From Diplonema papillatum (lineage: Eukaryota; Euglenozoa; Diplonemea; Diplonemida; Diplonemidae): 64,000 nucleotides of DNA. The notes under the pieces were generated by a model. It did not search any database. It saw nothing but the letters and a program-made list of their open reading frames with translations, and was not told the origin of the DNA. The DNA lies in NCBI GenBank assembly GCA_030068145.1, contig JAPJBO010000097.1:124001-188000 (forward strand), written 5' to 3'. The position numbers and the translations under genes were made by a program. Shown here piece after piece: positions 1,994 to 59,468 of the stretch (positions are counted from its first letter, which is position 1; the number at the start of each line of letters is the position of its first letter).

Positions 1994-3740
1994 GGGGTGG
2001 TTCGGGGGATAAAGTACAATTTTGGCTAGTCCACCCCCCATAGACTTTCGACGTTGACATTATTGGGAGAGAATCTGCTGCTTCATGTCCGAATAGACCG
2101 TGCTGGCAACCATCATGCGATTGAACGAACATGTGGAAAACTCAGTTTCATGCTTAGCTAGATGTAGGCAGAACACCGCACACGGTTGGTGGTAGCATCA
2201 AAGGGGGATGAACTGGCCCGGAAGTAGAAAAGAATGCTGTTTTAAGCGAGGGCGCGAGAAGAAAGACGGCACCTACAAACCTGTCGTAATAAAAAAAAAA
2301 AACCATATCATTTTCTCTTCCGATCGGGGGGGGCGGGGGGAGGTTTGCCTTTTCGGGGGGGGTTCTTTCCGCCAGCAAAAGAGGACACCCGGGTCTAGCT
2401 CGTGAGCCCGCACCACGGACTGGACCACAGCGGCACTGTTGCGACCTCGTCGGCGGGAAGCCACCGAGCAAACGAGAAGGCGAGAGAGCAAGGACCTGGT
2501 AAAAAAGCACACGAACAAAGAGAGTACAAAAAAGGGCTGGAGGGGGAAGGCCGCGACAAGGGAATAAACGCGTCGCGACCCTTCGTATCGTCGGTACCGT
2601 TGCTTCTTCTGTTCTTCAGGTTTGTTTGCGCGTGCGCAAGAAAAAGACGACGCTCGTCGTATGTGGCGCATGAGGGAAAACGCACTGCTCAACGTGTGAC
2701 CCACGTTCGGCCGGTCACTTTTCTGGGGAGGCGCAACCTTTGTGGCCAGTTATTTTTTTGTTTTTGTTTTGTGTCTTTTTCGGCGGTCGATGACCGCACC
2801 CACGCACACAGTTTGCTCCTTTTTACAAGAATAAAATCGATGGCAGCGTACTATTCTCACTTCCGTTGGATGAACGAAACGAGAAGTGCGCACAAACAAA
2901 GGAGGCGCCAGATTCGTATTTTTTTTTTAAGAGTAAACTTTTTGTTCTATGGCGTCTGACACACACACACACACAGGGATTATTATAATCCCCGAAATTC
3001 GGGAAAATCATGGTTAAAAAGTCTGTAGCATGGCCGGAAATTTTTTTTTTGTTTGAGCGAGGGTTTTTTAATGACCTGTTATCCTGGTCTGCGACCTTCG
3101 TGGGAGTGTTGCTGCTTCGCCACTTTGTATTTCCCCGAGCGATGTGCTGCCAGTTCGAGATAATGACCGGTCAATGACTGCAACCTCGCGGTCAGTTCTT
3201 CCGCGGTCAAGAGAGGTGCAGGCAATGGGCGCAACCCCCAGCACACGCCGGTCCGCCGTGGCAGACGAGGGGGTGGAGCTGGAGGTGGGTGGAGCTTAGC
3301 TTCGGGGGGGTGAAAAAAAAAAAGAGAAAGGCGTAGTCGCAGTGTTTTGGTTTGAACGGTTGAACAGGTGTCCACCCGGGGGGGGGCAGCATGGGGATGT
3401 TTGTCTGTCCGGAATTGGGGAATGGAGGGGTGGGTGGTGGGTTTAGTCACGTAAGAAGGAGCCAGAATGCGGGAAAAAGAAGAAGAAAAAAACAGGCCAT
3501 TCGGGGGGGGGGGGTTCTGCGCATATATGCGTGTGAGTTTTGAGTTCAGCCAGAAGAGGAGAGGGGGGTCATTCTCTTCGATATGTACCGTACTTTCCAA
3601 AATGAAAAAAAAGAAAAGAAGGAAAAATAGAAGGGAAAAAAAAAAAAGAGAAATTTGTGTGGAAACCCCGCATGTTTTTTTTTTTTCTCTGAAACAAAGA
3701 AAATGCGTTTTTCGGGGGGGGGGGGGGGGGGGGGGGGATT
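1..3740. other. Non-coding, low-complexity region
   Basis: I see no convincing gene here. The stretch holds homopolymer and dinucleotide tracts: a 30-base A run near 1962-1991, G runs near 350, 1740 and 3714-3738, and a CA run near 2960. It also has a hairpin-forming GC palindrome near 160-185, an 18S rRNA scrap at 541-612, and an inverted copy of a dispersed repeat at 1393-1463 that reappears at 4650, 14494 and 47582. Open frames in this part are translations of A-, G- and C-rich tracts with no domain-like composition. Confidence 0.6.
541..612 (+). pseudogene. 18S rRNA fragment (about 70 nt)
   Basis: The stretch resembles the small-subunit rRNA segment around 'CCCTATCAGCTTTTGAC', also present in better form at 12230-12250 of this window. 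It diverges quickly on both sides, so it is a short relic and not a functional rRNA. Confidence 0.5.
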
Positions 3741-4041: not shown

Positions 4042-7000
4042 CTAGTAGTAAGGCGATCCTTGCCGGCGCGCGGAGCCGGCGGGGCCGGCGGCGTCGCGCG
4101 GGTCGGATTTCGCGGTCGCATTGGTCACGGAGATGACAGGGTCCGCGTGCTTCGCGCCGCCGGCGGCGCCGAGGCCGATGACTTCGAACGTCATCACGTT
4201 CTCGGACGTGAACCACCCGTACAGCTGGTCGGTGATCTTCGGGAAAGCGTAACGCTTCTTGTAGTCGAACTGCGGCTCGGTGCTCATCTTGACCTCGTCA
4301 CTCTTGTAGTACTCCTTCTCGCCCCACTTGAACACGTACTTGCAGTGCACAGACTGGCTGTACGGCTTCGGGATGCCCTTGGCCTGGATCACGTGCACGA
4401 CGAAGTCCATCCTTCCGTCGTCGGGTTGCCCTTTTTTGTTGTCCAGCTTGTAGATGTTCACCAGCAGCTGCGGCGGGCACGCGTTGTCGAGGGTGATATT
4501 AGAGGAGCACTGTGTTTGTGTGAGGGGGAAATGCGTCAATTCTTCGGTGCAATGAGAGACTCGTGATCTCCTGTGAAGCACGGACACGTAAACTGCGACA
4601 GTATGGTTCAGGCTTGCATTTTTGGAACACATTGCAATGCAATGCTTTTGTTGAACGCTTACGCCCGCCACTAAACCCAAATTTACCTGTGCTTCGTGTG
4701 GGCTACAGCACATGTACCTCCTTTGATCTATCGCAACTGGCAGTCTCCTCACGCATTTCCTCCAAAGCAGGAAAAACAAAACTCGAGGTGCGCATGATGT
4801 ACACAAAATAGAGGTCGAACTCCGTTTATTTTTCATTGCGCTGCAGCTTTAGGCGAAGGCCAGCTCTCCCAAGAAACCACGCTAACTGCAAAGGTTGCAG
4901 AGAGAAGTCGAGAGCTACAGCGACAGGGTGTGACATACTTCCAAGGGCAGTGTGTGGTACTTCGAGGGCGTGGTCCCTTGCACGAGGAAGCGAAGGGAGA
5001 TCGAGGCTCTCCCGACGAACATCTGTGTGTATGTTAGGCAATGTTGTCTTGTGACACGAAGCTGGTGAATGGTAGGTTTCTAGTTTTGGGCTGGTCTTTG
5101 TACGGGCTGCCTTGATGCTACTTTGATCAAACTCACGTAGCTGCTTCGACTCCGAATGGAAGGGAGGAATACAGAGGTAGGGGCAAAATACAATACAAAC
5201 ACAATCTGATTTGTTCTTCGCTTACACCACCGTGTGTTGTTTTCTCACTCAGGACTTTCACCTGTTGTGCTTGTATGATTTGTTGTGTTGGGGTAAACCT
5301 CACGTCCGTTCAACGACGAAGTTCGGTAGTTACAGCACTTGGGATCCCTGATGTTCTTTGTAGGCGGCTTCGTCGAGCATTTCCTTTCAAACTGGCGCTT
5401 ATTTCGGGCGTGCCGGGTGATCGTTTTCCCACTTGTACTTACCAGGTAAGGAATTCTGATCAACCACCAAAACACGCTGCCTACGTCTTTTTAGCCTGCA
5501 CTATACATTGAAGGGCAACCCGCAAAATTGTTAGTTCTAAAAATGATCGGGAGATACCGCTCTGTTGCCGCCCTGTACGTCTTCACCCAAGGGCCTCGCG
5601 ACAGCGGCACCGCCGCCGGCGTTGAAGTTCATCATCTGCGCGTCGCGCGGCGTCTGCGCTCCCGAGACGCCGGCCTGGCGGGCCTTGAGCACGTTGATCT
5701 GGGCCTGGATCTTCTGGGCCTCTACGAAGTCGTCGGTCGCGATGGCGCGCGCCCGGGCGGCCATCAGGTCGTTCATGCCGACGCTCGGCTGCGCCTGCAT
5801 GCACTTGATCTCCTCGGTCAGCCTCTGCGCCTCCGTGAAGTCCTCGTTGGCGATCGCCCGGTCCTTCGCCCGCTGCAGCTCCTGCAAGCTGCTGCCGTTC
5901 TGGATCGAAGCGTACGTGTGCGGGCGCTGTCCACCCCACGAGCCGCGTGGTGCGTATCCCTGCGGTTGTTTTAAAGTATACGTTCAGCAGGAGACTCCAT
6001 GCAGTCAAAGCAGATAGCTCACTCTTCATCGAATGCAGTACTTGCACAGAGGACAGAGGACGGCGCCAAGGCACTCACTTCGTTTCATCCAGAAGTGTAC
6101 TCACAGGGCAAGATGCGGGGGAGCACGGAAGGCGGCACTCTGGACAAGTCATCGACACTTCAAATGTTGCGCTTGCAGAGGACGGTGTCAAGGCACTCAC
6201 TTCGTTTCATATAGAAGTGTACTCACAGGGCAAGATGCAGGGGAGCACGGAAGGCGGCACTCTGGACAAGTCATCGACACTTCAAATGTTGCGCTTGCAG
6301 AGGACGGTGTCAAGGCACTCACTTCGTTTCATATAGAAGTGTACTCACAGGGCAAGATGCAGGGGAGCACGGAAGGCGGCACTCTGGACAAGTCATCGAC
6401 ACTTCAAATGTTGCGCTTGCAGAGGACGGTGTCAAGGCACTCACTTCGTTTCATATAGAAGTGTACTCACAGGGCAAGATGCAGGGGAGCACGGAAGGCG
6501 GCACTCTGGACAAGTCATCGACACTTCAAATGTTGCGCTTGCAGAGGACGGTGTCAAGGCACTCACTTCGTTTCATATAGAAGTGTACTCACAGGGCAAG
6601 ATGCGGGGGAGCACGGAAGGCGGCACTCTGGACAAGTCATCGACACTTCAAATGTTGCGCTTGCAGAGGACGGTGTCAAGGCACTCACTTCGTTTCATCC
6701 AGAAGTGTACTCACAGGGCAAGATGCGGGGGAGCACGGAAGGCGGCACTCTGGACAAGTCATCGACACTTCAAATGTTGCGCTTGCAGAGGACGGTGTCA
6801 AGGCACTCACTTCGTTTCATATAGAAGTGTACTCACAGGGCAAGATGCAGGGGAGCACGGAAGGCGGCACTCTGGACAAGTCATCGACACTTCAAATGTT
6901 GCGCTTGCAGAGGACGGTGTCAAGGCACTCACTTCGTTTCATATAGAAGTGTACTCACAGGGCAAGATGCAGGGGAGCACGGAAGGCGGCACTCTGGACA

Positions 7001-10000
7001 AGTCATCGACACTTCAAATGTTGCGCTTGCAGAGGACGGTGTCAAGGCACTCACTTCGTTTCATATAGAAGTGTACTCACAGGGCAAGATGCAGGGGAGC
7101 ACGGAAGGCGGCACTCTGGACAAGTCATCGACACTTCAAATGTTGCGCTTGCAGAGGACGGTGTCAAGGCACTCACTTCGTTTCATATAGAAGTGTACTC
7201 ACAGGGCAAGATGCAGGGGAGCACGGAAGGCGGCACTCTGGACAAGTCATCGACACTTCAAATGTTGCGCTTGCAGAGGACGGTGTCAAGGCACTCACTT
7301 CGTTTCATATAGAAGTGTACTCACAGGGCAAGATGCAGGGGAGCACGGAAGGCGGCACTCTGGACAAGTCATCGACACTTCAAATGTTGCGAGGACGGTG
7401 TCAAGGCACTCACTTCGTTTCATGTGTGCTTGTGTCTGTGTTGCCTATTGCCGACTATTCGACTTGTTTTATAGAGCGTGCTCGTTTTGTGTGTTACCGT
7501 TCCGATCCCGAGTGACTGCTCTTTTGTCCACGCTGTTGGCTTCATTTCACAAGGCATCCAGTGAACCTAGTTTTGTCGGGAAAATATTTGGACCGGAATT
7601 CTTTTGGACTTTTGGGGGGTCTGAAAAATGTTTGGACTTTTTCCCGGTCCAACAATCTTCCGAATGACGATCAGTTTGGGGTCTTGCGACCTTGGTTTGA
7701 TTCGCAAGGAACTTTGGTAACGCGCTTCATTTAGAGTAAAAAATGGAAGTGTAAAGACTGGACAAACTGACCCCAACGCTGAGGGCAACCTAAAATACAG
7801 AGATCCCCCTACATACCGTCGATTGCTGGTACAGCTGGTTGAAGCTCTTCTTGCGGACGAACGATCCGGCGCTCTCGACAAGGGCACGGTTTTCCATACC
7901 TGTGTGTGGGGGGAAAGGGGTTTCTCACTACAGTTCAGATACTAGCAGGAAGCTCGACCGAAGGAGAAGCAAAACGCCTGAGCAACGTATCGCGTGTTGA
8001 CGGCACGTGTGGCCAGGAGGCAAGGCCAAAGCAAGTCTCTGCGCAAAATGGGCTAGCGAATCCCTTCCCTCTTCCCTTCCGAGGTCTCTCCGGTACCTTT
8101 GCGAGAGGAACAGCACGGTATCAAGGGCGAGAATGCAAGAAACGCGCTCAGAACCCCCGCGTCCTACCAGGACCGTGTTTCAGGGGGGAGAATCTTAGTT
8201 TAATGTTTAGGCAGAGCACTGCCTCTCATGCATGGTTGATGCTAGCATCAAGTCTTCGTCGAAGAAAGTGTAAAATAAAATAGGGGAAAGGGAAAAAGGG
8301 TCGCAGGTAGGGTTTGGAACCTTGAGGGACTATTCCTCTGTATTCTTTTTTTCGGGGGGGAAATCTTAGTTTAATGTTTAGGCAGAACACTGCCTCTCAT
8401 GCATGGTTGATGCTAGCATCAACCATGCATGCGAGGAAGATGTCGTCTAGGTAAGGGATGCAAAATAGAAAATACTCTCAAAGTGGGGAATGAAACCTTA
8501 AGGGACTAGCCCCCTGTGTTTTTTTCACCGCGGTGTTGTGTGCACCTCGTTCTTCGTCTCATGTTTCGCTCTTTAACGCAGGGGGGAAAATCTTAGTTTC
8601 GTGTTCAGGCGCTACTTGCCCGGGGGGGGGGAAGCTTTTTACTGCAACGGGCTGGACTTCAACCCCTCCTTCCAGCCAGGCTACCCACTCTGCTGCCTTA
8701 CCGCTAGGCAGGTCCTGAGAGCGTACCCTTTCTCATACACACCTCATGACGTTGGATTTGCCAGTACACCTTCGCTAGGTCTCCGAAATACTTTTCACCG
8801 CGGTGTCTTGGAGGGAAAATCTTAGTTTAATGTTCAGGCAGAGCACTGCCCCATGAAAGGTTGATGCTAGCATCAAGTCTTCTTCGAGGAAGATGTTGTC
8901 TAGGAAAGGGATGCAAAATAGGAAGAGGAAAAAAGGGAAGTGTACGACTCCCAAAGTGGGGTATGAAACCTTGAGGAACTAACCCCCCGTACCGCGGTGT
9001 CGTGGGGGGAAAATCTTAGTTTAATGTTTAGGCAGAGCACTGCCCCATGAATGGTTGATGCTAGCATCAAGTCTTCTTCGAGGAAGATGTTGTCTAGGAA
9101 AGGGATGCAAAATAGAAAGTGGTAAAAAGGGGAGTGTACGGCTCCCAAAGTGGGGTATGAAACCTTGAGGAACTAACCCCCCTTTGTTTTTTCACCGCGG
9201 TGTCGTGGGGGGTGTTTGAAAGAACGTGCTAGGAATGGATATGTGCTCAACACCGCACTGGTCCTGTCTGCGCCGTGTTCCGGTCCTTCAAGCCACGGAC
9301 ACATAACTCGGACCATCATCAGCGCGGAATCTGAGTAGCGGTGTGAGTCCGGTTTGTGGTGCTGTAGAGGGGGAAAAACTTAGTTTAATGTTTAGGCAGG
9401 ACACTGCCTCTCATGCATGTTTGATGCTAGCATCAAGTCTTCTTCGAAGAGAGTGTAAAGTAGAAAGGGAAAAGGAAAAGGGAAAAGGGGTCACCGGGAG
9501 TGTAAGACTCCGCAGGTAGGGTATGAAACCTTGAGGGACTAGTCCTCTTTATTCTTTTTTCACCGCGGTGTGCACCTCGTTCTTCGTCTCGTGTTTCGCT
9601 CTTGAACGCAGACCAATCCAGAGTTAGAGCTCATCAGTGGGTCCTTTGGATGGGGACTTTCGGTCCAGTTCCGGTGCTATCACAACTTTCTGGTTTCATT
9701 GTTCGTCGCATCCTTCCTTCGTAAGTAAAAAAAAGGGGGGGAGTGGGTGTGTGTGCATACGCTTGACACGCTCTTCGTACGACATGTTGGGGTCGTCGAG
9801 CAGGTCCTGCATCTGCTTCTGCATACTGGGCCGCTTGCCGCCCATGCCCTGGGTCGGGGAGCCGGTGCGCAGGTGCGACCCTGCCGATTTCTTGGCGGTG
9901 TCTCTTCCGCGGCCCATCCGGTTCTCCATGTTGCTCGTCTCCTCGAGCTCCCGCTTCAACTTCGAGTTCTCCGCCTTCACGGCGTCCAGCTCCTTGCGCA

Positions 10001-13000
10001 GTTGGTCGGCGATGTCGGATTTCACCCCCTTTGCGATGGTGCGCCGCAGCTCGCCTTCCGTCTCCGCTGCGGCGTTGAGGTCATCCTGCAGCTTCTTGTT
10101 CTCCCGCTTCAGCGCCTCGAGCTCTGCCACCATGCCGGTGCTCGCTCCCTTGTTCATCTGCACCGCAAGCTTCTGCGCTTCCTCCTGCCTGTTCGCCTCG
10201 TAGTTCGCCAGCTTGTCTTTAAGGTCCGCGATCTGTTTTTCATTTTTAGCGTTTTTATTTGTGGATGAGAAGGTCGGTGTTCCAAAGCCTCCGGTTGACC
10301 GTGGAGGCTGTGGGTAGGTTACGGGTTAAAACGCAAACAATCTGCGGCGATAAATCTGCAGCATCGCCGGCGCTCGCGATGCTGGGTTCAGATCGTCGTG
10401 AGACAGGTTAGTTCTGCCCTACTGATGTTCAGATCGTCGTGAGACAGGTTAGTTCTGCCCTACTGATGGAGACAGCTGCGGCGATAATCTACATCGCCGG
10501 CGCTCGCGATGCTGGGTTCAGATCGTCGTCAGACAGGTTGGTTTTACCCTACTGATGGAGAGAGAGCTGCGGCGATAATCTGCAGCATCGCCGAGGCTCC
10601 CGTTCCCCCGACTGCCGCCGTCGAATAACGCCGCCGTCTCCTCTGTCCGCCACGGTCCACCGCTCCTTCGGCTGTCGCTGCGCGATGTTCTCCCGCCTCC
10701 GCTGTGTGCCGGCCGGCGTGAGCGGCAGGCCGCTGTGCAGCTCGAAATCGACGGCGAGCTCGAGATACGAGATGGAGGACTCCTTGCCGGTTTCGGACCA
10801 GCACCATTCGCGATGCTGGGTTCAGATGTCGTGAGACAGTTGGCTTTACCCTACTGATGGAGAGAGCTGCGGCGATACTCTGCGTCGCCGGCGCTCGCGA
10901 GCTGGGCTTAGACCGTCGTGAGACAGGTTGGATTCACCCCACTGACGGAGAGAGAGCCCATCGGGTCGGCGCATTCCGACAGCAGACGGTATCTCTTCGC
11001 GCGTGATGTGTCATGTTTTCGTCTCTTCAGCTTGTCTTGTTCGTCTCGTTTAGGCGCGCGCTTGGGGCCTCGCTTCTCCGTCGACTGCTCGTCCAGCTTT
11101 ATCGGTTGCGCGTCGATAACGGCGCTTAGGCGAGTGTTTTGCGTCTGGGCGCCTGTAAGACATGCATACCTCCTTTTCGAGCTTCTTGTTGTGGTCTCGT
11201 TGCTCTGCCAATTCGAGTTGACGAGCCATCTTGTTTTGCTGAGCGGCATTCGTGACGAGCTGTGCGTGATTTGTGGTCGTTTTTAGTGTATTAGGTCAGT
11301 GCGCGCGCGATCAGCCGGCTTGCTGGCTGATTCAACTTCGAGCCTTTTGTGTTTCCGACGACCCCGTGGGACAACTAATCAGCCGCTTTTTTCCTTAGCG
11401 CGAACACTGTACAGGGCACCGTGCAGTTGTAAGCGCAGGCGCGGGCCGACCTCGAAGGATCAGACAGCAACGTCGCGAGAAAAGGACGTGCTTGGAATGG
11501 TGCTGTGCACCACCGCGCTGGTCCTGTCTGCACCGAGTTTCGGTCCTTCAAGCCACGGACCACGGACACACGAGCCGGACCGTCGTCAGTGCTGCAGTGC
11601 TGCCCACGATTCCGGGAGTCAGAAAACTGTTCCCACGATTCCGGGAGTCACAAAACTGTTCGAACGATTCCGGGAGTCAGAAAACTGTTCCCACGATTCC
11701 GGGAGTCAGAAAACTGTTCGAATGATTCCGGGAGTCAGAAAACTGTTCCCACGATTCCGGGAGGCAGAAAACTGTTCCCACGATTCCGGGAGTCAGAAAA
11801 CTGTTCCCACGATTCCGGGAGTCAAACTCAGGAAGAGAAGCCAGCTGTTTCATCGATGTATCATCATGTGGGATGACCTCACGTCCGTTCAACGCGTGTC
11901 CGGTAGTTACAGCACTCGGCATGTCTTCGGTTCCTTGTATCTCAGAGTAAATGGATTAACAGTGGGTCTACAGACGGCTCATTAAATCGGTGGCAATCTA
12001 CGCGGGGAAGGTGCCTTTTGGGCCCAGTTGGATAACAATGGTAACTCCATTGCTAATAAACGTCCGAAGAACCCAACGCGATTCAACTCCGTGGCCTTAA
12101 AACCGCGGGGGTCGAGGTGGATACAATTGACCGAGATAAGAACCAACGCTGGCAATAGCGGCGTGTGTGGATGAAACCGGTCAATCGAGTGACATCACAC
12201 GACTTCAAGTCGGTGCAAGCCCGCAAGAGCTTCTGCCCTATCAGCTTTTGACGGTAGTGTAGTGTAGTGAACTACCGTGGCTGTAACGGGTAACGGGGAA
12301 TCAGGGTTCGATTCCGGAGAGGGAGCCTGACTACCACACATCTAAGGATGGGAGCAGGTACGCAAATTGCCCATTAGGAACACTGCTGAGGCAGCGAAGA
12401 GAAATAGCTTCGACACGTACTTAGTACGTTAGAAGCAATGGATGATATCTGCTTCCAGCACCTTGGCGGCTTCGTCGAGTATTTCCTTCCAAAATGGCGC
12501 CTATTGTTGTCAAAAATAAGCAGTACCTTTGCGTTGGCAGCGTAGTCGAGGGTAGACTTCGTTTCGACCATGTTGTACGGCGATGACGAGCAAGTGGCGA
12601 TCATCCAGGTTTTCGAGTTGCCTCCGAAGGATTCCTTCAGCAACCGCGTAAGTTTCGAGTCTCTCAGAGGAACGTGCGCTTTCGGTCTGCGTTTTATTTT
12701 GTGATACCGATCCGAGCAAAAGAAAAGCACCGAAGATGGCCGCATCATCACGGGGAAGGCAGTATCACTCACCTGCACATACCGCAATTGGATTAATGTT
12801 GAACCGGGTAAACCCTGGGACACCTCCAAAAATGGGCCTGGGTGTTCCAGGCTTTACCCGGTTCGGCGTTTTTTTTTTTTTTTTCGGGGGTTGCGTACTT
12901 TGCAGAATATCGACCCGGGGGACGTTCGCCTGCTCAATATGCAGAATATCGACCCGGGGGACGTTCGCCTGCTCAATAATCAGCTCGCCTCAAGGCAAGA

Positions 13001-16215: not shown

Positions 16216-16998
16216 GACAATTCACTCGAGCACCCTGTTGAAACTTGTAGTTGAATCCAGTGCTCAGGCAAGTCGCCACCTGCTGCATCGCGCATACACA
16301 CCCCAAGATGCCTGTCGGCATCGTCCAAGCTCAGCCGCTGTCGACCTTGGAATCTGCGAAGCGTCCGAGAGAAGACAGGGGGGGGAAAGGACAGAAAAAA
16401 TCGTACGTCGAAGCCACGTGGGTACAAAACACTTTTTGACGAAGATCGCCCTTTTCCTCGCCCGTCCACCCTCGGCTCCTCCTACGGTGTGCGCCTCTGT
16501 CGAAGCACGCGGCGATGTAGGTTGATCGCATTGCGTCGCCAGCACGAGAGAAGACACAGCGCGGGTGCACGAGGGCACGATTCCGAACGAAATCAGGAGA
16601 GGAAGAAGAGACGAGTTAATGGTGTTGATGTTATTGCAACAAAAAAGAAAAATGTTCGTTTCCCTCGCCTTTATAGAGAAAAACAGTACAGAATCTCAGG
16701 GAGAAGGACCTTAGCTCTATAATGCTGTGGGCAGGACGCTGCCTCGCAGACTCCTCCCGTGGAAGAAATTGGCGTGTTGTGAGACCAAAGAATGAACATC
16801 GTGTGGGAGGCCTCTCCGTCCTCATGCATCAAGAGCCTGCCACGTGGGACTCTCCCCTGCAACGAATCGGCTAGGAGAATCGTCTTCGGCAGGTGTTCGT
16901 TCAGCTACCTTTTTTTTTTTTTTGAGTACCCCGTTTGGTACCACTGGGACGGAGGGGCGACCAAACAAGACGACTCCAAAGCGGGTCTTGTGGGGTCT

Positions 16999-17249
<251 letters not shown>

Positions 17250-17363
17250 ATGCGCGGGTACCAAGTGCGCACTGTCCCGACGAACGAGGAGGATACCGCG
17301 TATCTCAGCTCGCTGCCCATCAAAGAGATGCCTGGCGGCGCGCAGCCGAAGAGAAGAAGATGA
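17250..17363 (+). CDS. Possible C-terminal coding remnant, unidentified
   Basis: Directly after the TTG repeat an open stretch reads YQVRTVPTNEEDTAYL, then SSLPIKEMPGG, and ends PKRRR-stop. Composition is protein-like (charged, balanced). I do not recognise it with confidence. No clear 3' splice site separates it from the microsatellite. It could be a terminal exon, a pseudogene or chance. Confidence 0.2.
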   Translation: MRGYQVRTVPTNEEDTAYLSSLPIKEMPGGAQPKRRR

Positions 17364-18078
17364 AGCTTTGATGTACAGTCTGGGGTGTCTTTCGACGTTT
17401 CTTGTTGCTTTTTATTTCCCGGCGCTTCCTCCCGCCAGGTCTCCTTCGCCTTTGAAGGCAGCAAGCGGGTCCCGCGCTCTCCCTCGGTGCTAAACCCACT
17501 TCGGCTTGGTGCTCGGCTACTCGGGAGATCAGCTCGGGCTGAATGTGCGCGCCTTGTCCAAGGAGATAGAGCAGATAGGCGATTGCCCCGCGCTTGATAC
17601 TGGGCGCTGTACGGAGACATTTCCGGGTCTTGCCTCCAGCTGTGGACATGCCTCCCTTCGGTTTCAAGCGTCGCGCCGCGGTAGACAGCGGCAGGCAATG
17701 CGACGCAGTTCCAGGGGCTTACGTACGAAGCAGAAAAGCATGGCCGCGGTGCTCTCTTCTGAACACGACCCCCTCGGACTAAACAGAGAGACTACGTTTT
17801 GTGGATTAATATAGTGCGTCCGACGATAATCACTCAGTCGGTTGTCGGCGCTCTTTTATATCTTTCGATTCTGTGATGACGGCACGAATGTGCGTGCTTG
17901 TTCACGCCCCTCTATTTTTTTTCCTCCCCCAGACGGCCTGTCTACCTTTTCCTGGCTCGCAACTGAAAAACAAGAACATGCATTCTGGTTTCTTGCTGCT
18001 CACAGGAAATAGGTATCGGGGAGAGGGACTACGACGGAAACTAAACGGAGAACAACTGGCATCCAAAAAAATAAAATA

Positions 18079-21000
18079 CCGTAAGCGGGTTTAATATGAA
18101 ACGTGTATAGTACGAAACGGTTTTAATACGAAACGTGTTAATTAAGAAACACCCCGGATCTGAAGCTATTAACACGTTTCGTATTAAAAACTGCACTTCC
18201 ATAGGGGTTTTGAAGGGGTTTGTACTTAGAGTAAACTGGGGCTCGACAATAAAAAAAAGGATGCAGGAAAATTGACAGAAAACTTGAACCAGTCAAAAAA
18301 ATGCACCGATTTCTTCGCCCGCGTCAGCCCTTCACCCCATGCGAAGCAGATTCGACAATCTTTGCCCGCTCAGCACAACAGGTAGCAGGTGATGCGGTTG
18401 CAAAGGAAGTCGCGAAGGAGTTGCCGACAAAGAAAACAAGGTGCTCAGCATCATCCGCTCTGCTAGGTCATCAGGTGGCGCTGTGACGGCACAAACCGTG
18501 TCAGCAACAGCTAGAGGCATGGTGAAAGCTAGTGATGAAAGCGAGCGCATTCACGACGCCACCACGCTGAACAAGGAGTGGGCGCGTGCATGGATGCGAC
18601 GGTTGGGCTGGTCCATGAGAGCTGCAACAACAGCAGTGGCCACCACAACGCGACCCTTCCTGGAAGCTCGTGCAGAATTCGTTGCAGAAGTACAGAGTGC
18701 AAGGAAGCTCCACGACATCCCCTTAGAAAGGGTAGTAAACGCCGACCACACACTGTTGCAACTCCTGCCAGCACCCAAGAAGACCTACGCGCCGGTGGGC
18801 AGCAAGCGAGTGGCCCTAACAAACCTGAACGACAAACGGTCGATCACAGGTCTGTTTGCGGCCTTTGCAACAGGGGAGCTGCTACCCCCGCAGTTGATCT
18901 ACGGCGGGAAAACCAGCAGGGTTCTTCCACCGGAGGCAAAAAGACCAGACGGGTGGTCTTTTGTCGCCAATCCTAACAGATGGGCAAACGAACAAACCAC
19001 GAAGGTGTGGGTAAATGACGTGCTGCTGCCGGCGATGAACACACGGAGAGGAGAGACAGAGTGGGGCCTCCTTATCCTCGATCGTTTCTCTGCCCAGCAC
19101 ACACAAAGTATCAAGGAACTACTTGTGCACAATCGCATCGCAACAGTCTGCATTCCGGCTGGCTGGACAGGAAGGTTGCAGCCGTTGGATGTTGGTCTAA
19201 ACGGTGTTCTGAAGCGGAGCTTGCGGGACGAGTACTCAACTTGGTACAGCGACAGTGTGCTCAAGTTGATGAAACAAGCAAATGCAAAGAACGCGAAGAA
19301 CCTGATGAAGAACAAAAAATACAAGAAAGACAAGAAGCATAAGAAGGCTACAAAAGACGTGGAGAGTGTTAACGACGGTGACGCTGCTGAGGACATCCAA
19401 CGTCTTCAAAGTGTATCCGTTGTCCCCACACCCGTGCTCTTTCGTGAAGTCGCGCACTCAAAGACGAAGCACAGTGTCATCCTCTACGACAGTCTCGGGG
19501 AGCGTAGCAGTATGACGGTCTCGTTGTCCGAAGCAGCAGGGGCAGCTGGCGACCTGCACTTCGCTCCGGAATGGTGGAGACAGCAAGAGGCGCACGCTTG
19601 TGGGTGGTTCGCCTATCAAAGCATCTGGCTGGCTGCCAGCGGAAAGTGCGTTCAGGAGGCCAGCGATAAACCAACGCATGAAACAGCTAAGCAACTGCTC
19701 AGCAAGTGCACAGAAGCCGATCTCGCTGCATTAAGCGACACCAACGTCACAAGGACTCGTGCGACAATTGTAGAATTGATAGCCGAATTTGCGAAGACCC
19801 CCGCGTCGTCTGAATTTGAAGAAAAACATCATCTTGATGTATTAGTCGCGCTCGTTCTCAATGAAGTAGTGCTGCGTCTATTTGGGGTGAAAGTGCGCTT
19901 GCACGAAACGTGCACCTTCTCTGCTGCTGAACACTTGAAGTCCGGGTGCCGGCAAAGCTCACTGGTTGTCTTGTTCGACGGGGCTCATTTTGCTTCCCTT
20001 GTCACCGTGTCTGCTGAAGAACACACGTCTGTTGTGGAAGGTGAGATGCTGAAGATGATGGCGCGTCTCGACCTCCGCGCAAAATCTCTGCGTAGACGAC
20101 ATCTGAAGTGGCTAAAGACGGCGTTGTCGAAAGTGAAACCCGAGAGCATCCGGGCGAGTTTCGTGGTGACCGGGTTGAGTGACGCAAATTTACTGGAAGA
20201 GAAAGTTTCCGATCCAACAGGAGATGGAGCCGACCAAGGTTTCGTTGAAGACAGCCCCCAGGCCACCGGTTGCGGGGACAACGTTCTCGCCGAACTCCTT
20301 CGCAATTTCAATGAATGTCTCGTACTGAGTGAATGCGCAGATTGCATCAACGATTCTGACTTCGCTGATTTTGACCAAGAGCTTGAAGAACTGGCAAACG
20401 ATGAATGCGTTGCTGTGGAGGTGGATGCGGTTCATGCTAGTCTTGGGGCTGGCGAGCACGAGAAGAAGCTGGATGGCAATCACCTGGAGAGGCTTTACTC
20501 CTTCTTTAAGGACAACTCCGCCTTTGCTTGCGCTGCCCTTCCATACGACCGGCTTACCCTGTCATCACTGACGCGTGCCCGCCTAATGAACACCTTCGTA
20601 AACACTAGCGTGTCAGGAACTCGTGGTTGGCACTGGATGCTTGTAACAACCGACCGGTCGCTCCGAAGATGCGTTGTATCTTGCTCGCTTTCTGACTTTT
20701 GCGGAAGCAAGATAGTCAGCCACCTTGCAACGGTCTTTTCCGCCGACACCGACTCTTGGTTCATTGAGACGGACGCTCGAGGATGTCAACAAGACGATTG
20801 GAGCTGCGGTTACCATTCCTTGTTTGCGGCGCTGCAGTTCACAGACTGCATCCCAGAGCCGTTGGTGATCCCGCCCACGCCTGTCGTCTTCATTCACAAG
20901 TGCCAGAACGCTCTGCAATTGCTGTCATCGTGATGTCTTGTCGCTAATACTCTGACCGCGGTACGTTTTTCCTGCTCAAAGGCTCGATACACCAAAGATT

Positions 21001-21158
21001 GTCGGGAACCAAAATGGGGGATCATCATGGGGTTTTCAAATTTCACTAAGTACGTCAGACCCCTTGTTTTTAGTACGAAACGTGTTAATTAAGAAACACT
21101 TTGGCCAAAAAAAGTAGCTAAGAAACATTTACACGTTTCGTATTAAACCCGCTTACGG
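18079..21158 (+). mobile_element. pogo/Tigger-type DNA transposon, 3,080 bp, with TA duplications
   Basis: Left and right ends share 29-bp inverted repeats beginning CCGTAAGCGGGTTTAATA with a single mismatch (18079-18107 and 21130-21158), flanked by TA (18077-18078 and 21159-21160). Subterminal copies of 'ACGAAACGTGTTAATTAAG' lie inside both ends, near 18135 and 21073. Another 'AACACGTTTCGTATTA' lies near 18172, giving a cluster of likely transposase-binding sites. One ORF on the plus strand fills the interior. The boundaries and TA target fit the Tc1/mariner/pogo superfamily. Confidence 0.95.
18441..20933 (+). CDS. pogo/Tigger DDE transposase fused to cysteine-protease-like modules
   Basis: The ORF stays open for 830 codons; coordinates begin at a GTG codon, and residue numbers count from it. 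Residues 1-65 form a CENP-B-type helix-turn-helix ending in WMRRLGWSMRAATT. The DDE domain follows, with D102 (NADHT), D214 (LLILDRFSAQH) and D250 (GRLQPLDVGLN), a DD35D spacing usual for pogo/Tigger. A Lys-rich linker (285-305) leads to a first module with ILYDSLG (347-353) and QQEAHACGW (381-389), then a stretch ending LVVLFDGAHFASLV (508-521) that resembles the histidine strand of OTU proteases. The C-terminus (690-830) has GWHWMLV (H731) and QQDDWSCGYHS (C789), the His and Gln/Cys signature of Ulp1/C48 proteases. The usual YDSL Asp there reads SCSL. Upstream coding sense continues in another frame from Met 18301 (AKEVAKELP), so a one-base frameshift near 18425 is likely in this copy. The transposase call is firm; the protease calls are motif-based. 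Confidence 0.85.
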   Translation: MLSIIRSARSSGGAVTAQTVSATARGMVKASDESERIHDATTLNKEWARAWMRRLGWSMRAATTAVATTTRPFLEARAEFVAEVQSARKLHDIPLERVVNADHTLLQLLPAPKKTYAPVGSKRVALTNLNDKRSITGLFAAFATGELLPPQLIYGGKTSRVLPPEAKRPDGWSFVANPNRWANEQTTKVWVNDVLLPAMNTRRGETEWGLLILDRFSAQHTQSIKELLVHNRIATVCIPAGWTGRLQPLDVGLNGVLKRSLRDEYSTWYSDSVLKLMKQANAKNAKNLMKNKKYKKDKKHKKATKDVESVNDGDAAEDIQRLQSVSVVPTPVLFREVAHSKTKHSVILYDSLGERSSMTVSLSEAAGAAGDLHFAPEWWRQQEAHACGWFAYQSIWLAASGKCVQEASDKPTHETAKQLLSKCTEADLAALSDTNVTRTRATIVELIAEFAKTPASSEFEEKHHLDVLVALVLNEVVLRLFGVKVRLHETCTFSAAEHLKSGCRQSSLVVLFDGAHFASLVTVSAEEHTSVVEGEMLKMMARLDLRAKSLRRRHLKWLKTALSKVKPESIRASFVVTGLSDANLLEEKVSDPTGDGADQGFVEDSPQATGCGDNVLAELLRNFNECLVLSECADCINDSDFADFDQELEELANDECVAVEVDAVHASLGAGEHEKKLDGNHLERLYSFFKDNSAFACAALPYDRLTLSSLTRARLMNTFVNTSVSGTRGWHWMLVTTDRSLRRCVVSCSLSDFCGSKIVSHLATVFSADTDSWFIETDARGCQQDDWSCGYHSLFAALQFTDCIPEPLVIPPTPVVFIHKCQNALQLLSS

Positions 21159-21160
21159 TA

Positions 21161-23430
21161 ATACAGATGGACGCTCCCGGCATTATTATCTACACCAGGG
21201 GGCAAGAGCGTGCTTGGAATAGTGCACACTAAGCGGACCCTCATCAGCGCGGAACCTGACTGCGACTGCGATGTGAGTCTGGTTCGTCAGCCGGCAAATT
21301 CATTTTAGGTGAACGACGCATCACACTTCAAGCTCACCCTTCTGACTCAGGTCACCAACAGCTCTCCTCAGCTGACGGTGGCAAGCAAAGACCAACTCCG
21401 CTTTTGCTCGCTCTTTTACGCGCGTGCACACTTGTGTTTCCGACAATCCCGAATGGGCGTACAGATTGGTGGTTTTCGACCTTTTATTGTGTTTCCGGCG
21501 ATTATCTTTTATTTATTTTTTGTGAGGTGTCAGGGGTTGTACGGTCTTAAGAGCTTCCCTTGTCGGGTGCCAGTGAAGTGGTTATTGTTCAGTTTTTTAC
21601 ATAAGCGCCAGCTTGAAAGGAAATGCTCGACGATGCTGCCCGACACGGAACAGAAGGGATCCCGAGTGCTGTAACTACCGAACCGCGTGTTGAACGGACC
21701 TGAGGCCATGCTGGTCTACCCCTACACGACAAATCACACAAACACAACAGGTCAAAGTCCTGAGTGAGAAAACAACACGGTGGTGTAAGCGAAGAACTGT
21801 GGAAACGGGGTTTTGCCTAGAGGCTTTTCGTGTTATTCGAACAAATCAGATTGTGTTGGATTGCATTTTGCCCCTCTTCCTCTATATTTCCTCCCTTCCA
21901 TTCGGAGTCGAAGCAGCTGCGTCGAGTATTTTTCTTTTGGACAAAACAGCCACGTCTTTAGCCCTGTCCATAGCAGGAGTGCTTAGAAATGCGCGACATC
22001 CGTCACCTGTAGGAAATACTTGAGGAGGCTGCCCCTCACGCCGAATTCTTTCCGTCCTGGCTCATCTTGCCCCCTTGTGGCGTACTGTCCGCCAAGCCAG
22101 AGCCCAGTCTAGAGGAATGCGTGAGTTACTCAGGGCACACGGTTGTTCGATCGGACAGTGCCGTGCTGCTACCACTGGATGAATTATGGCTGAACGCCTC
22201 CAAGCCAGAATCCAGTCTAGAGGAACGCGTGAGTTACTCAGGGCACACGGTTGTTCGATCGGACAGCACGCCTCAAGGAAGGCAAGATGGCAAGATGAAC
22301 CGACAGAAACAACCCGGCGTGAGGCCTTCGAGTGTTCGTTTCGATATGTTCAGAGAGGGTGTTGCTGCAAGATATAACTTCAAGCAGGGGCGGAGCATGG
22401 ATGGAGGGATCAAAAACGGTCAAGACCACTCACGAGTAGTCAAGCCAACTATGTGTGCGTGTGTGTGCAGCTCCTGTTGGAGCTAGATACAACACGGTGC
22501 GCTACAAAGTGTCACTTATTACCATTAAAAACAAAATAGAGCGTCTGGGCTCCGACTTCGCATCATGCACTGGGGTTGCGCACGCATCAGGAGTCCGGCC
22601 AAACTTTCCCCTTCCGAGTTTGGACCAATCCGGCCAGTAAAAAAGCTGGCTCCATGATGACTGCTGCTCCGTTTTCGAGTACTGATGCAAAACTGATGAT
22701 GCAAACCAAACGTAGAAAAACCAAGCAATGATTATCGCGTGTCTGCCAACGAAATGTCAACAAGCCGAGGTAATGGCCATGGCCAGCTGTCAGTACTCGT
22801 CGGCATAATATCAATTTTCTGCGGTCTTCGATCTTCGATCTACGACGAGAAAAAGAAAACGATGCCTGTTCGGGCCTGCGTGGGGGGAAATATTTCGTGT
22901 CGGGCAGAATCCTGCCTCTCATGGGTGATGGGTGCTACCATCACCGTCTTCGTTGTCGATTTCGGACTTTGTGGTGCCGTAATGGTAGCAACGTCAACGT
23001 TGTCGATGTCGGACTTTGTGGTGCCGTAGAGTAGGAGTGCAGGGGCCGTCTCTCAGGGGTTTCCGATTAGCCTCGCTGCTACATCGTACTTCCAAGGCGC
23101 CGCGGCTGCAAATGTCAGCTTCCGTTGACAAATGTCATTTTTCTGCTTCTTTGTTTTGATTTTGATGCGAACTCATCTGAGCCAATTCACCTAGAGCGAC
23201 CTAAAGCTCGATTCCGCGGCGACTACACTGCCGAGCACGACCAGCAGAGCGATCTGAGCTCGATCTACACTGCCGAGCACGACAGCAGAAGGGACGGAAG
23301 CGCGGGCCTTCGTCGCCGGGGACGCCCGAAGCAACACCGATGTCGAGACGAAAGCTGCGAATGCCGGTGAGGAATACAGCCAACTTGCTCTCTAACCCAA
23401 AAAACTACGAGCCTCAACAACGTTTCGATC
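21161..23430. other. Intergenic repeats between the transposon and the carrier gene
   Basis: It contains a copy of the 3748 repeat (21205-21300). A ~290-bp repeat (21590-21880) is inverted relative to kinesin intron 7. A 65-bp direct repeat (about 22096-22160 and 22199-22265) contains 'GTGAGTTACTCAGGGCACAC'. A scrap of the intron-5 palindrome family lies at 22886-22945. Small open frames here follow the repeats and I do not call a gene. Confidence 0.55.
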
Positions 23431-35698: not shown

Positions 35699-38672
35699 CA
35701 GTGCTGATGCTAAGGCCCCTAAACTCGGCATCGTTGTCAGCCGGACGGCAACGAGGGGTGGGTGGGTACCCTCCCCCTCCCCCCCCAATGTAGGCAAAAA
35801 AACAAATCCTGGAGCAAAAAAACAGCAAAAAAACAAAAAAACAAAAAAACAAAAAAACAAAAAAACACAAAAAAACAAAAAAACAAGGCCCTCCTGGTGA
35901 TCCCAAATCCTGGTGCACACCCCAACCGAGCCTTGCTACACTCCACCTAAACCACTTAAAACACCCAGCTTTCTACATCCTGCCTACCAAAGCCACCCAG
36001 CTACCGCTCTACAAGTCAGCGCAACTCCTGATAATTCTGCAGACTCTTCCAGCCACTGCCAATGTCAGTCAAGGGAGAAAGTGAAGTAACTTTTTCGGTG
36101 ATGCCTGAACTGTGGAAGTCAGTGAACGAGAAGATCAAAGTAGAAAGAGGAGGGTATTCCTAAACACTTTTCAGTAGACTGGTGCACGCCTTTACTTGCT
36201 ATTTTCTTTCGGCTCAATGTCATCTTCAGCGTCCCACCAACCAGTGTGCTGCTGATTTTTGTACTTTCCTGAGAGGTTGTAGTACACACTCGCAAGTTTG
36301 TGCACTTTGTCAGAGTTGAGCCGGCACCGCTTCCCACTGGACATCCACCCCATTACCGAGAAGACTCTTTCACACTGGCAGGAGTGAGGTACAACCATGG
36401 TTATCTTCTTGGCCAAAGGTGCCAAAAGAGACTGTGGGTGCATTCTTCGGATTGCCCCCCACCATGCTTCGGGTGGCTTTGTGTTAGCCAAAACCCACAA
36501 CCCGTCATTGTCAAAGATGCCGCTTCTTGTTTCAAATTCAATAAGCTCGGCAAGTGCTCTTCGCTGTTCTTGAGCCTCACTGTATTTGCACTTCAGATAC
36601 CTCTGTGTTCCTGATCTCAACATAGTCATGGTGTTTCCACTGGTGAAGGTTTCGAACAGTTCCTTGTGTTTCTCTCCTGGGCAGTGGACAAACGGAGAGA
36701 GCATGGTTGCAGCAACGACCCAGTCCACCTCGTACTGCTTCTTGCGTGTGTCGATAGATTCAACAATCGTGTCAAATCTGGTGCTGTGATCGGCGACATC
36801 AGCATTGGACACTTTCAGCTCTTTGAGACCTTGTGCCAGAGTGCTTTTTAGCTCCACAATATGGCACCTCAACTGATGCATGCAAGGAAGAATGAAGCCA
36901 ATGCGTGACCAGTCTGCTTCAAGTGTTTTCACAGCCTTGTCAATTTCTGTCAGTAAGCTTTTCACGTGTGAGAAGACAAGAAAGAAGGGCCTGCTCACAA
37001 GCTCGAGTGAGGCAGGAACAGAAGAACACCACTGTCTCGCCTCTGTGTCATCTGCCGCATTTTGCAAGTTAATCAAAACGCGTTTCTTATCATGTAGTTC
37101 GGCAAACGAAGCTCGCCACGAAGTCCATCTCGTTGGACACGGGGCCGGGGGTAGTTTTACAGGGAAGTTGGCCTCCTTGAGGGCACTTACATAAAGCTTT
37201 CGTACCAGCTCGGTATTGCGGATGGCACTTACCACCTGCGATACCACAGTGTTCACACTGTGGTACACATTTGGAACTTCTTTCTTTTGCTTTGTGTGAG
37301 TGCCAATGACGTCGTTGACGAGTCTATTGAGTGTGTGTGGAACGCAAACAAGTGCTCCTTCTGCATCCGGGTGCTCTGCACAGAATTCTTTGCTGGCCTT
37401 GTGGCCTGCGGATTCAGCATCTGCGACTACTGTTACAACACGCATTTGTGGCAAGCGGGCAAGGTGTTCCTTGAACTCTGTGTGCGTATGCGAGCGGCTC
37501 TCCATTATGTTGGTTTGGAGGAGGAATGGTTGTGGTAGGCAGGCATTGATGGAGAGAACGTGGTCTTTTTTCTCTGTTTGCCATCCGTCGAAGTGCAGGG
37601 TCACATACTCCGCTTCTTGTACACTTTTTTCGACGGGCTCAATGTATTCGTTGTAGGCCGCATCCAGTCGCTTGCCCGCCAGCTGCTTTCTTTTAGCCAA
37701 CTTCGATGTGTTGATGCTCGGACGTACGGCTTCGACAAATTTCAGGAACAATGGGTGTTCCACAACAGAGAATGGGATGTTACACCCAAAGAAAAATTCA
37801 GCAAGCGCTTTGTTGACAGTTTCGTAGTCAGCTTCGTTCATTCGATCGACAACTTCCAGTGTTGTCTGAACTCCTTCTGTGCCAACACGCTTGCGCTTCT
37901 GGTGTCGTGTCTCATTGTCTGACAGTTCCGAAATGCACCTCTCTTGTATAGCCTTGGCAATCTTGTCGCAAGCCCTTAGATGTTCCTTGAGACGTGTCCC
38001 GCCTTGTGCACTAATTGTCTTGTCACACGCTTTGCATTTCCACTTCAGCTCCAACGCAGCACCTATCCTCTCGAAGTGTGCCTTCGACCAGCACTCAGCT
38101 CTCCCTCCAGCGTGTTTTGGGGGCATTGATGACTTGATTTTTTGACTTCCTGGATGAGGGATTGGAAATATGTCACAAGCATCTGAAAAAACACACATAA
38201 ACTCGAAACACCACCTCATCAGACCACTGTCCTGCACGTGGAAGACCCGAGCCAGCAAGAGTGCACCAGCAGACCGCCAGGCAAAAAAACACAAATCTCC
38301 AGAGCAAAAAAACGGCAAAAAAACAAAAAAACAAAAAAACAAAAAAAACAAAAAAACAGATAGGGTGCCAACATTGTCCCCCCCCCCCCCCCCCCTCCTG
38401 CAGGGCCTGTGTGCAGCAGGGTGGTGACCGCTCGAAGGTGGTTTCCTCAGCAGCGACCAAGAAAAAAAAAATTTTTTTTTGGCCCAAATCCTCCCAAAAA
38501 AGCACTCGAAAAAAAAATTTTTGACCCACTTTTTCCACCATTTCACCTTAGAGAATTTAGCTAAGGTGGGTCCCACAGTAGGTCCACAGTGGGTTGCACC
38601 AGGAGGGGGGGTAGGGGGGGCCACCCAGGGTTAGCAACTTCGTTTTGGGTCTCAGGCTTAGTATCAGCACTG
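35699..38672 (-). mobile_element. hAT-A, full-length transposon in poly-C
   Basis: The left end CAGTGCTGATGCTAAG and right end (reverse complement) CAGTGCTGATACTAAG are flanked by C tracts (35687-35698 and 38673-38693). The 2,974-bp element encodes one hAT transposase on the minus strand. Subterminal blocks of 'CAAAAAAACAAATC' and (AAAAAAAC)n lie on both sides in the same orientation (35795-35885 and 38280-38360). A ~230-bp foldback block (38377-38605) precedes the right end. A deleted derivative lies at 38757-39191. Confidence 0.9.
36192..38126 (-). CDS. hAT family transposase, 644 aa
   Basis: This is the cut-and-paste transposase of hAT-A. Residues 31-53 form a BED-type zinc finger (CKAC, then EHLRAC). 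The middle contains VTLHFDGWQTEKKDH and VVTVVADAESAGHK, the region of the RNase-H-like catalytic core. The end has the hAT dimerisation motif PPEAWWGAIRR, LAPLAKKITMVVPHSCQCER and VFSVMGWMSSGKRCRLNSDK. The start is Met 38126 (MPPKHAGG); the frame upstream is translation of C/A tracts. There is no stop or frameshift, so this copy may still be active or recently so. Confidence 0.93.
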   Translation of the reverse strand: MPPKHAGGRAECWSKAHFERIGAALELKWKCKACDKTISAQGGTRLKEHLRACDKIAKAIQERCISELSDNETRHQKRKRVGTEGVQTTLEVVDRMNEADYETVNKALAEFFFGCNIPFSVVEHPLFLKFVEAVRPSINTSKLAKRKQLAGKRLDAAYNEYIEPVEKSVQEAEYVTLHFDGWQTEKKDHVLSINACLPQPFLLQTNIMESRSHTHTEFKEHLARLPQMRVVTVVADAESAGHKASKEFCAEHPDAEGALVCVPHTLNRLVNDVIGTHTKQKKEVPNVYHSVNTVVSQVVSAIRNTELVRKLYVSALKEANFPVKLPPAPCPTRWTSWRASFAELHDKKRVLINLQNAADDTEARQWCSSVPASLELVSRPFFLVFSHVKSLLTEIDKAVKTLEADWSRIGFILPCMHQLRCHIVELKSTLAQGLKELKVSNADVADHSTRFDTIVESIDTRKKQYEVDWVVAATMLSPFVHCPGEKHKELFETFTSGNTMTMLRSGTQRYLKCKYSEAQEQRRALAELIEFETRSGIFDNDGLWVLANTKPPEAWWGAIRRMHPQSLLAPLAKKITMVVPHSCQCERVFSVMGWMSSGKRCRLNSDKVHKLASVYYNLSGKYKNQQHTGWWDAEDDIEPKENSK

Positions 38673-48027: not shown

Positions 48028-48160
48028 GGCGGCAATAGCCTCGGCACGTAAGTAATACGCTAGAAGCAATGGATGATATCTAAACACTGCCAATGAACAC
48101 AATTGGTGGACAAGTCTGGCGCCAACACCCGCGGTAATTCCAGCACCAATAGTATCGTTC
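48028..48160 (+). pseudogene. 18S rRNA fragment including the 530-loop
   Basis: It runs from 'GCAATAGCCTCGGCACGTA' through 'GCAATGGATGATATCTAAAC', 'CACTGCCAATGAACACAATT' and 'GGTGGACAAGTCTGG' to the universal 530-loop 'CCCGCGGTAATTCCAGC', then stops at 'ACCAATAGTAT'. It continues the rRNA from about where the kinesin-intron fragment ends. Confidence 0.93.
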
Positions 48161-57844: not shown

Positions 57845-59468
57845 ACGAGCTACTACATGGTTCGATGAGTCGTTTCGCGCCTATACCCAGCTTTGACAAG
57901 CCATTTGCACGTCAACACCGCACGGACCTTCACCAGGGTTTCCCCGCTTCGTCCTATCCAGGCATAATTCACCATTTTTCGGGTCCGAACGAGTGTACTT
58001 AACCTCAAATCCGTTTCCAGTGAACCAGAATATCGGGAGCTAGGCACGTTGTTGCCGCAGCAGTCGGTTTCTTTGTGGATGCTGAGAAAATGAAATGTGA
58101 AGGCAATCCGACCAGAAGGCTCGACTGAGCACGAAGAAACGAGGAAGGGGGATGCGAGGGAAAAAAGATGGGGAAATGTGAAAACGGGTTTTTGCCTAGA
58201 GGCTTTTCGTGTTATTCTGAAGAAAAGGATAGAAGAAGTGCATAGTTTTTTTGGAGGAAGAGAAGGGCGAAAGCCGGAACGAGGCGGAGGTGGGATGCAA
58301 GACCTGGGTGGGGGTCCCAGCAGGGGTGCCCCCTGCAAGACGCCCACTGCTTGGCACAAGGTGAGCACACGGCACGGGGCTGCGGGTGAGCGGGTCTACC
58401 CCCGACTGGTGGACTGCTGATGAACCTGCGATAGTTTGGATGCGCATGCAAATAATATGTGGCGATAATCTGCATCGCCGGCGTCGCGGTTACCTCTTCG
58501 CACGTGATGTGTCATGCTTTCACCTCTTCAGCTCGTCTTGATCGTTGCTTTCAGGCGCGCGCTTAGGTGCTGTGATAGACTGTAGCTGCCTGTGATAGCC
58601 TGCGATAACCTGTGCTAGCCTGTGACAGGCTATGATAGTTTCAGCTCAGTGTATGTTTGATCAAAGTAACTGTGATAGACAGCAGCACGCAGTTCGATGC
58701 ACTTCCAGGAAATAGGGGTGGCTCGCTCAACGTGCGTGAGCGAGCCTACTGAGTCACACAGGTGCGGTTGCTCTGCAGCTCTGACTCAAAGCTTCGCCGG
58801 AGTCGAGATCGCGTTTGTTTTCCGTCCGTGAACTGATGACGCTGCGATTGAATGAAGTGGGCGACCGTGTGAACTGATGATCAGCCGGTGCCACGGCGCC
58901 ACGATTGAAAATGAGCGAGGAAGCTGCTCTGGCTGGCAGCCTGTGCAACCGGATTGCCGATGACAGCACGCCAACTTGCCGCGACTCCACAGAACTCTAA
59001 GCCGTCCTGTGGCAAAGCGGTGTTGCCAGATGTGGCGTGACTCACTCAAAACTTGACTTAACACACACGCGTCCTCCGGGCAAAGCCTGCGGGAAAGATC
59101 CTCCGCCAGAATACAAAGCTTCGTGCAGTGGTCAGGCAGAATCTGGCCGGGTTTGAGGAAGCAGGAAGTGGGCAAGAAAAGTCGATGCTAGCAGCGGGGG
59201 TGAAGAATTGGGGTAAACCCTTGCGGACGGGCGGGGACAGTTACCCAGGGTGCAGAGAGACCTCTGGGTAAACTCTCCGGTACAACGTCAAGAGTTTTAT
59301 GATGAGGGACCCGAGGCTCCTCGGGAAGGTCGCGTAAACATCTGTGCACAGCAGCAAATATGCATCTCTTTTGACGTGTCATTACTCTGAAGATGCAGAA
59401 CCCGAACTTCAGCTCAGGTACCTTCTTTTTCGCACACTCCCGTCCGAAAGAGATTGATTTTATAAAGA

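Follow-up and report, generated by a model that had tools for sequence, protein, structure and literature searches.

A pogo-type transposon of Diplonema papillatum, crippled by an internal deletion, with a putative OTU-like insert and a putative clan CE-like end module

Within a 64,000-nucleotide stretch of Diplonema papillatum DNA (the window), we found a pogo-type transposase that carries, as the original prediction had it, two extra protease-like modules in the same reading frame; both are conserved between families. We consider it fairly probable that this is a pogo transposon crippled by an internal deletion, in which an OTU-like insert and a CE-like end module putatively act on ubiquitin or SUMO. 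The element in the window is a defective copy, and the finding stands on intact copies elsewhere in the genome.

The window element has a length of 3,080 bp (18079-21158), with matched ends and a TA on both sides. The arms, taken as 31 nt including the TA (18077-18107 and 21130-21160), are 97% complementary, and the first 16 nt are identical at both ends. The TA-flanked 29-bp ends described in the original prediction are intact, but the element itself is internally deleted: relative to the majority of its family it is 286 bp shorter and has 1 substitution. The deletion lies near the 5' side and has removed much of the DNA-binding region. Because of this deletion, the ATG at which intact copies start (18301) is out of frame in the window copy. 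The features of the element are as follows.

18077..18078, no strand: TA target site, left (read from sequence)
18079..18107, +: left terminal inverted repeat, 29 nt (arm comparison)
18121..18189, no strand: left subterminal repeats, TACGAAACGTGTTAA motif, direct and inverted
18301..18440, +: leftover of the original protein start (MHRFLRPRQPF...), frame lost through the internal deletion
18441..20933, +: open frame, 830 aa from GTG, equal to residues 141-970 of the intact protein
18846..19307, +: DDE_1 nuclease match (Pfam)
19413..20060, +: module 1, putative OTU-like insert; putative Cys codon 19599, putative His codon 19986
20061..20225, +: transposase C-terminal tail, common to families 1-3
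20436..20930, +: module 2, probably clan CE-like (Ulp1/adenain type); putative His codon 20631, Cys in Asp place 20682, Gln 20790, Cys 20805
21068..21127, no strand: right subterminal repeats
21130..21158, -: right terminal inverted repeat (arm comparison)
21159..21160, no strand: TA target site, right (read from sequence)

The core of the subterminal repeats had no further match within the window when up to 3 mismatches were allowed. The open frame extends over 846 codons from stop to stop (18393-20933) and contains every motif that had been quoted from a single ORF; the other five frames have 42, 38, 21, 16 and 28 stops. Pfam recognised one significant domain in the window protein, DDE_1 (E 1e-16, above the curated cut-off). 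The putative catalytic Asp codons are at 18744, 19080 and 19188, the first of them upstream of the Pfam match, with 111 and then 35 residues between them. This bears out the predicted DD35D catalytic domain.

Elsewhere in the window there are kinesin and tubulin-tyrosine-ligase frames, and tandem arrays at 5932-7451 (period 122 bp), 51366-52073 (period 33 bp) and 16949-17292 (period 9 bp). An 810-aa frame on the reverse strand (36192-38624), with sub-threshold matches to BED zinc finger and DUF659, is probably a hAT-like transposase. Four scattered pieces of nuclear rRNA exceed the Rfam gathering score (11926-12399 +, 48035-48149 +, 57846-57985 - and 22099-22218 +); they represent SSU positions 38-472 and 477-594 and LSU positions 813-954 and 3018-3148. 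By eye, the piece at 11926-12399 looks diverged from ordinary SSU. Our guess is that these pieces are rDNA-derived repeats or pseudogenes.

We call the family of the window element family 1 and searched for it in 271 Mb of genome (2,910 contigs). Among the 57 matches of the window protein that were listed, 33 (the window included) span residues 2-830, so that the proposed search for further copies did yield near full-length ones; 32 of these 33 are stop-free, and the shorter matches are partial copies. A scan for pairs of terminal inverted repeats (TIRs), comprising 45 loci of which some overlap, detected 27 pairs, with TA on both sides in all except L011. The flanks of most pairs differ from each other; L012 and L018 have theirs in common, and the two may be one place assembled twice. 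We aligned the 24 pairs of 3.0-3.6 kb, dropping L011, L030 and L037, which lie outside that range. The aligned elements have a majority length of 3,366 bp and a mean pairwise divergence of 0.15% (maximum 0.38%), and 17 of the 24 (L001 counted) encode the 970-aa protein with 0-2 changes relative to L001. Copies without the C-terminal half had been named in advance as evidence against the fusion; 23 of the 24 keep both Cys motifs in frame. It is a separate family, family 2, that does lack module 2 while keeping module 1. With a divergence as low as 0.15% and intact frames, family 1 is a young cut-and-paste DNA transposon of the pogo kind, recently active and probably still so.

Module 2 alone gave at least 157 genome matches, many more than the full-length element. 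Probably, 3'-end derivatives of family 1 have spread as non-autonomous elements. We had hoped for diverged families among these matches, and the five that we inspected (66-78% identity) were frameshifted near-copies, useless for a test of selection.

The intact family 1 protein (970 aa) consists, in this order, of the DNA-binding region, the DDE_1 nuclease (DD35D), module 1, the rest of the transposase and module 2. Module 1 is an in-frame insert of about 215 aa, preceded by a Lys-rich linker, and module 2 is C-terminal with about 165 aa. Two other families show that these modules are separate cassettes. Family 2 (739 aa, element of 2,941 bp) has three full genome matches (C234, C235 and C591), the first two of which differ so little that their identity is 99.97%. 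It has its own TA-flanked ends (CCGTAGCGG, versus CCGTAAGCGGG in family 1), and its identity to family 1 is 48% in the DNA-binding part, 56% in the DDE part and 37-38% in module 1. The protein carries module 1 and stops before module 2; in the stretches around two family 2 copies, module 2 had no match better than E 0.45. Adjoining the copy in C234 there is a 382-aa frame (L021, 7628-8773 +) that resembles, by eye, a tyrosine recombinase of the Crypton or DIRS kind. Family 3 has four genome matches (C30, C379, C445 and C782), and its description rests on one copy (C30), with 718 aa counted from the ATG lined up with the other starts, or 738 from an upstream ATG. Here the DDE part runs straight into an uninterrupted tail and then module 2, without module 1. 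A family 3 TIR was not found within 2.8 kb around the C30 copy.

The three families have the same 35-residue DD35D spacing, and their tails are alike (for each of the three pairs, 0 of 500 shuffles reached the score). Since the tail is common to all three, module 1 interrupts the transposase as an insertion, and module 2 extends the protein behind the transposase. The original prediction had placed both modules behind the transposase, which is correct for module 2 but not for module 1. On a first reading, we had also equated the tail of the window family with that of outside relatives, and we dropped this after an HMM test. An HMM of the outside tail gave family 1, where the tail was expected, 0.7 bits (as against up to 3.8 in shuffles) and family 3 a score of 4.4 bits (best shuffle 5.1); hhalign of the tails gave 16.4 versus a maximum of 14.8 in 60 shuffles, yet a probability of 3.8%. 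Because the likeness to outside relatives was not borne out, the insertion claim rests on family 3. To our knowledge, and in our judgement, a module inside a DDE transposase with the tail resuming behind it is an unusual protein architecture. In a tree of 37 DDE rows, whose references are relatives without a pogo family name, families 1-3 form one clade (99/97) with families 1 and 2 as sisters (99/98). The branch of family 3 is long and was flagged by the tree program.

Close inspection of module 1 showed that the part with ILYDSLG and ACGWFA and the part with LFDGAHFASLV, which had been predicted to be separate, form one conserved module. Its alignment score between families 1 and 2 is 313, compared with 31.4 +/- 5.1 for shuffles (0 of 500 as high), and HACGWFA and HF are invariant. 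The putative His, part of HF and followed by a strand that ends in LVTV, comes 129 residues after the Cys, and Cys before His is the order of OTU and papain-like proteases. A two-sequence profile of module 1 matched four sequences at E <=10 among all PDB chains. The best were OTUD7B/Cezanne, an OTU deubiquitinase (E 0.049 and 0.05, over the AHF strand), and the other two were eL13 ribosomal chains (E near 0.5). The OTUD7B match covers only the His motif and is below ordinary significance (single-stretch i-Evalue 0.09), and module 1 did not match Pfam OTU above the cut-off. What we take to be the usual OTU box was not recognisable by eye around the putative Cys. From these weak profile matches, module 1 is likely to be OTU-like, and it is likely to be an enzyme. 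An Ulp1-like first module had been proposed: the protease-like character stands, but the Ulp1 assignment does not, as the Cys precedes the His and the best PDB match is an OTU deubiquitinase.

Module 2 is homologous in families 1 and 3 (BLASTP 5e-11; 0 of 500 shuffles) and has H, then Q and C, which is the order found in clan CE. The full H-D-Q-C (HW, WDSL and QQ..TCG) is present in family 3, with distances from H of 20 to D, 51-52 to Q and 59 to C. The window family has CSL where family 3 has DSL, that is, a Cys in the Asp place, with distances from H of 17 to this Cys, 52-53 to Q and 58 to C; the full H-D-Q-C pattern is absent from its module 2. The pattern H..D[ST]..Q..CG arose in 113 of 100,000 shuffles of family 3 module 2, and H..Q..CG alone, the part kept by the window family, in 828 of 100,000. 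A profile of module 2 matched three PDB sequences, all adenovirus protease (E 0.13-0.18), in a match that covers only the HW motif and is below ordinary significance (single-stretch i-Evalue 2.4). Presumably, the His matched in OTUD7B and in adenain is their catalytic His. Module 2 matched neither Pfam Peptidase_C48 nor any other clan CE entry, Pfam recognised neither module in families 1, 2 or 3, and single-sequence PDB searches gave unrelated matches or none. The weak profile matches suggest that module 2 is likely clan CE-like (Ulp1/adenain). An enzyme is likely in family 3 and doubtful in the window family. For the original prediction of an Ulp1-like last module, this means that the H..Q..C order and the adenain profile match agree with it, but the Cys in the Asp place does not.

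We compared pN/pS between families, noting that all values are rough because synonymous sites are saturated at these distances. Between families 1 and 2, pN/pS is 0.42 in the N-terminus, 0.41 in the DDE part, 0.57 in module 1 (bootstrap 0.47-0.69) and 0.70 (0.53-0.94) in the tail and what follows, versus 1.16 in the Lys-rich linker (28 codons); the contrast between module 1 and the linker is clear. Module 2 has 0.70 (0.60-0.80, 159 codons) between families 1 and 3, and the tail has 0.74 between families 2 and 3, with a range that includes 1 (0.53-1.09). Both modules thus look constrained between families, at values of 0.57 and 0.70; a test for purifying selection on the protease part had been proposed as a check.

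How might such a protein work? The N-terminal region would bind the ends and the subterminal repeats, and the three Asp would excise the element and integrate it at TA. The OTU-like insert may strip ubiquitin from the transposase itself, or else from chromatin or repair proteins of the host that sit at the transposon ends, which would result in a longer-lived transposase or in steered repair. The ancestral CE-like module may have had SUMO or ubiquitin as its substrate. Family 3 retains H-D-Q-C; the window family has Cys in the Asp place, and there the module may be less active or serve for binding only. In the most likely history, the CE module would have been acquired in the common ancestor of families 1-3 and the OTU module inserted before the split of families 1 and 2, with family 2 later losing the CE module. 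A bolder reading, to which we give slightly under an even chance, is a currently active pogo-lineage transposon with a working Cezanne-like OTU deubiquitinase inside and an adenain/Ulp1-type protease at the end; the sister families that have just one of the two cassettes would then show that these are gained and lost as modifiers of transposition.

Other explanations need to be weighed against the mechanism set out above. The modules could be non-cutting relatives of proteases, which would hold the transposase at chosen chromatin sites by binding ubiquitin, SUMO or their carriers. The Cys in the Asp place of the window family, the lack of Pfam matches to the modules and the loss of module 2 from a family 2 protein that retains the rest are consistent with such pseudo-enzymes, but at 37% identity families 1 and 2 still agree in the Cys and His of module 1, and family 3 has kept H, D, Q and C, so that we regard this as possible though unlikely. 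Self-processing in the manner of a polyprotein, parting nuclease from protease, seems improbable to us. Adenain is a viral processing enzyme and the best match of module 2, and the linker before module 1 is Lys-rich and fast-changing (pN/pS 1.16). However, module 1 lies between two transposase parts, so its excision would split the transposase; we saw no conserved cleavage site, and families with one module only exist. Chance read-through, or chimeric assembly, is scarcely credible as the origin of the C-terminal half, because many copies share the frame and the ends in different flanks and the C-terminal modules are conserved in diverged families. Chance read-through is excluded by the 32 stop-free, near full-length matches among the 57 listed.

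The element also bears on other transposons. Ulp1 or OTU domains are carried by transposons of unrelated kinds, namely Ginger1 and, as cited in the Ginger1 report, Mutator-like elements and Helitrons; for such domains that report offers a role in transposition or subsequent repair only as a possibility (PMC2836005). A small, probably active pogo element, with three combinations of the modules occurring naturally in a single genome, would make this old guess testable in cell assays.

In its transposon features, family 1 resembles the pogo superfamily, which is described as having TA sites, short TIRs, DDE_1, lengths of 1.2-5.2 kb and transposases of 300-977 aa (PMC7386202). Family 1 shares the TA sites, short TIRs, DDE_1, DD35D and lengths. 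For instance, a TA target site duplication is reported for most pogo families and TIRs of <=40 bp for Type 1 (PMC7386202), and family 1 has TA in 26 of 27 TIR pairs and TIRs of 29 nt. The DD35D spacing is as in the Passer and Fot/Fot-like groups. The N-terminal DNA-binding domains given for pogo are HTH_Tnp_Tc5, CENP-B_N, HTH_psq and BrkDBD, and in Mover they are undetectable (PMC7386202). Pfam did not find the CENP-B-type HTH of the original prediction; it gave HTH_Tnp_Tc5 in a segment at E 0.14, below the cut-off, and no such domain in the intact proteins of families 1-3. That pogo survey relied on hmmscan and describes DNA-binding and DDE domains, with the words 'OTU' and 'protease' absent from its main text (PMC7386202); it would have missed such modules, because Pfam does not recognise them.

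Among 5.8 billion proteins, words from residues 40-290 retrieved 38 relatives. We inspected 25 of these, and the 21 closest (P0002-P0022, 463-521 aa) are pogo-like transposases with 32-40% identity to family 1 over the DNA-binding and DDE region. Unlike family 1, all 21 end shortly after the DDE part and have neither module. When the query was the whole protein or residues 335-830, no relative turned up among the 8,000 candidates with the most words in common, and the viral contigs scanned gave none either. A pogo-protease fusion was not found in the open-licence literature, judged by title or abstract opening.

The closest parallel is Ginger1, whose transposases carry an OTU or Ulp1 domain C-terminally in the same protein (PMC2836005). 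Ginger1 has a Gypsy-integrase-type transposase, whereas the protein described here has DDE_1 and no Gypsy-type integrase, and Mutator-like elements and Helitrons belong to transposase classes other than the pogo type of family 1 (PMC2836005). None of the Ginger1 families listed in the report has both OTU and Ulp1 (PMC2836005), whereas family 1 appears to combine both kinds in one protein, with the OTU-like part inside the transposase instead of at the C-terminus. OTU and Ulp1 domains in other transposons were thus already known; what appears to be new here, as read from the sequences, is that a probably active transposon of the pogo type has captured two protease-like modules and carries one of these within its transposase.
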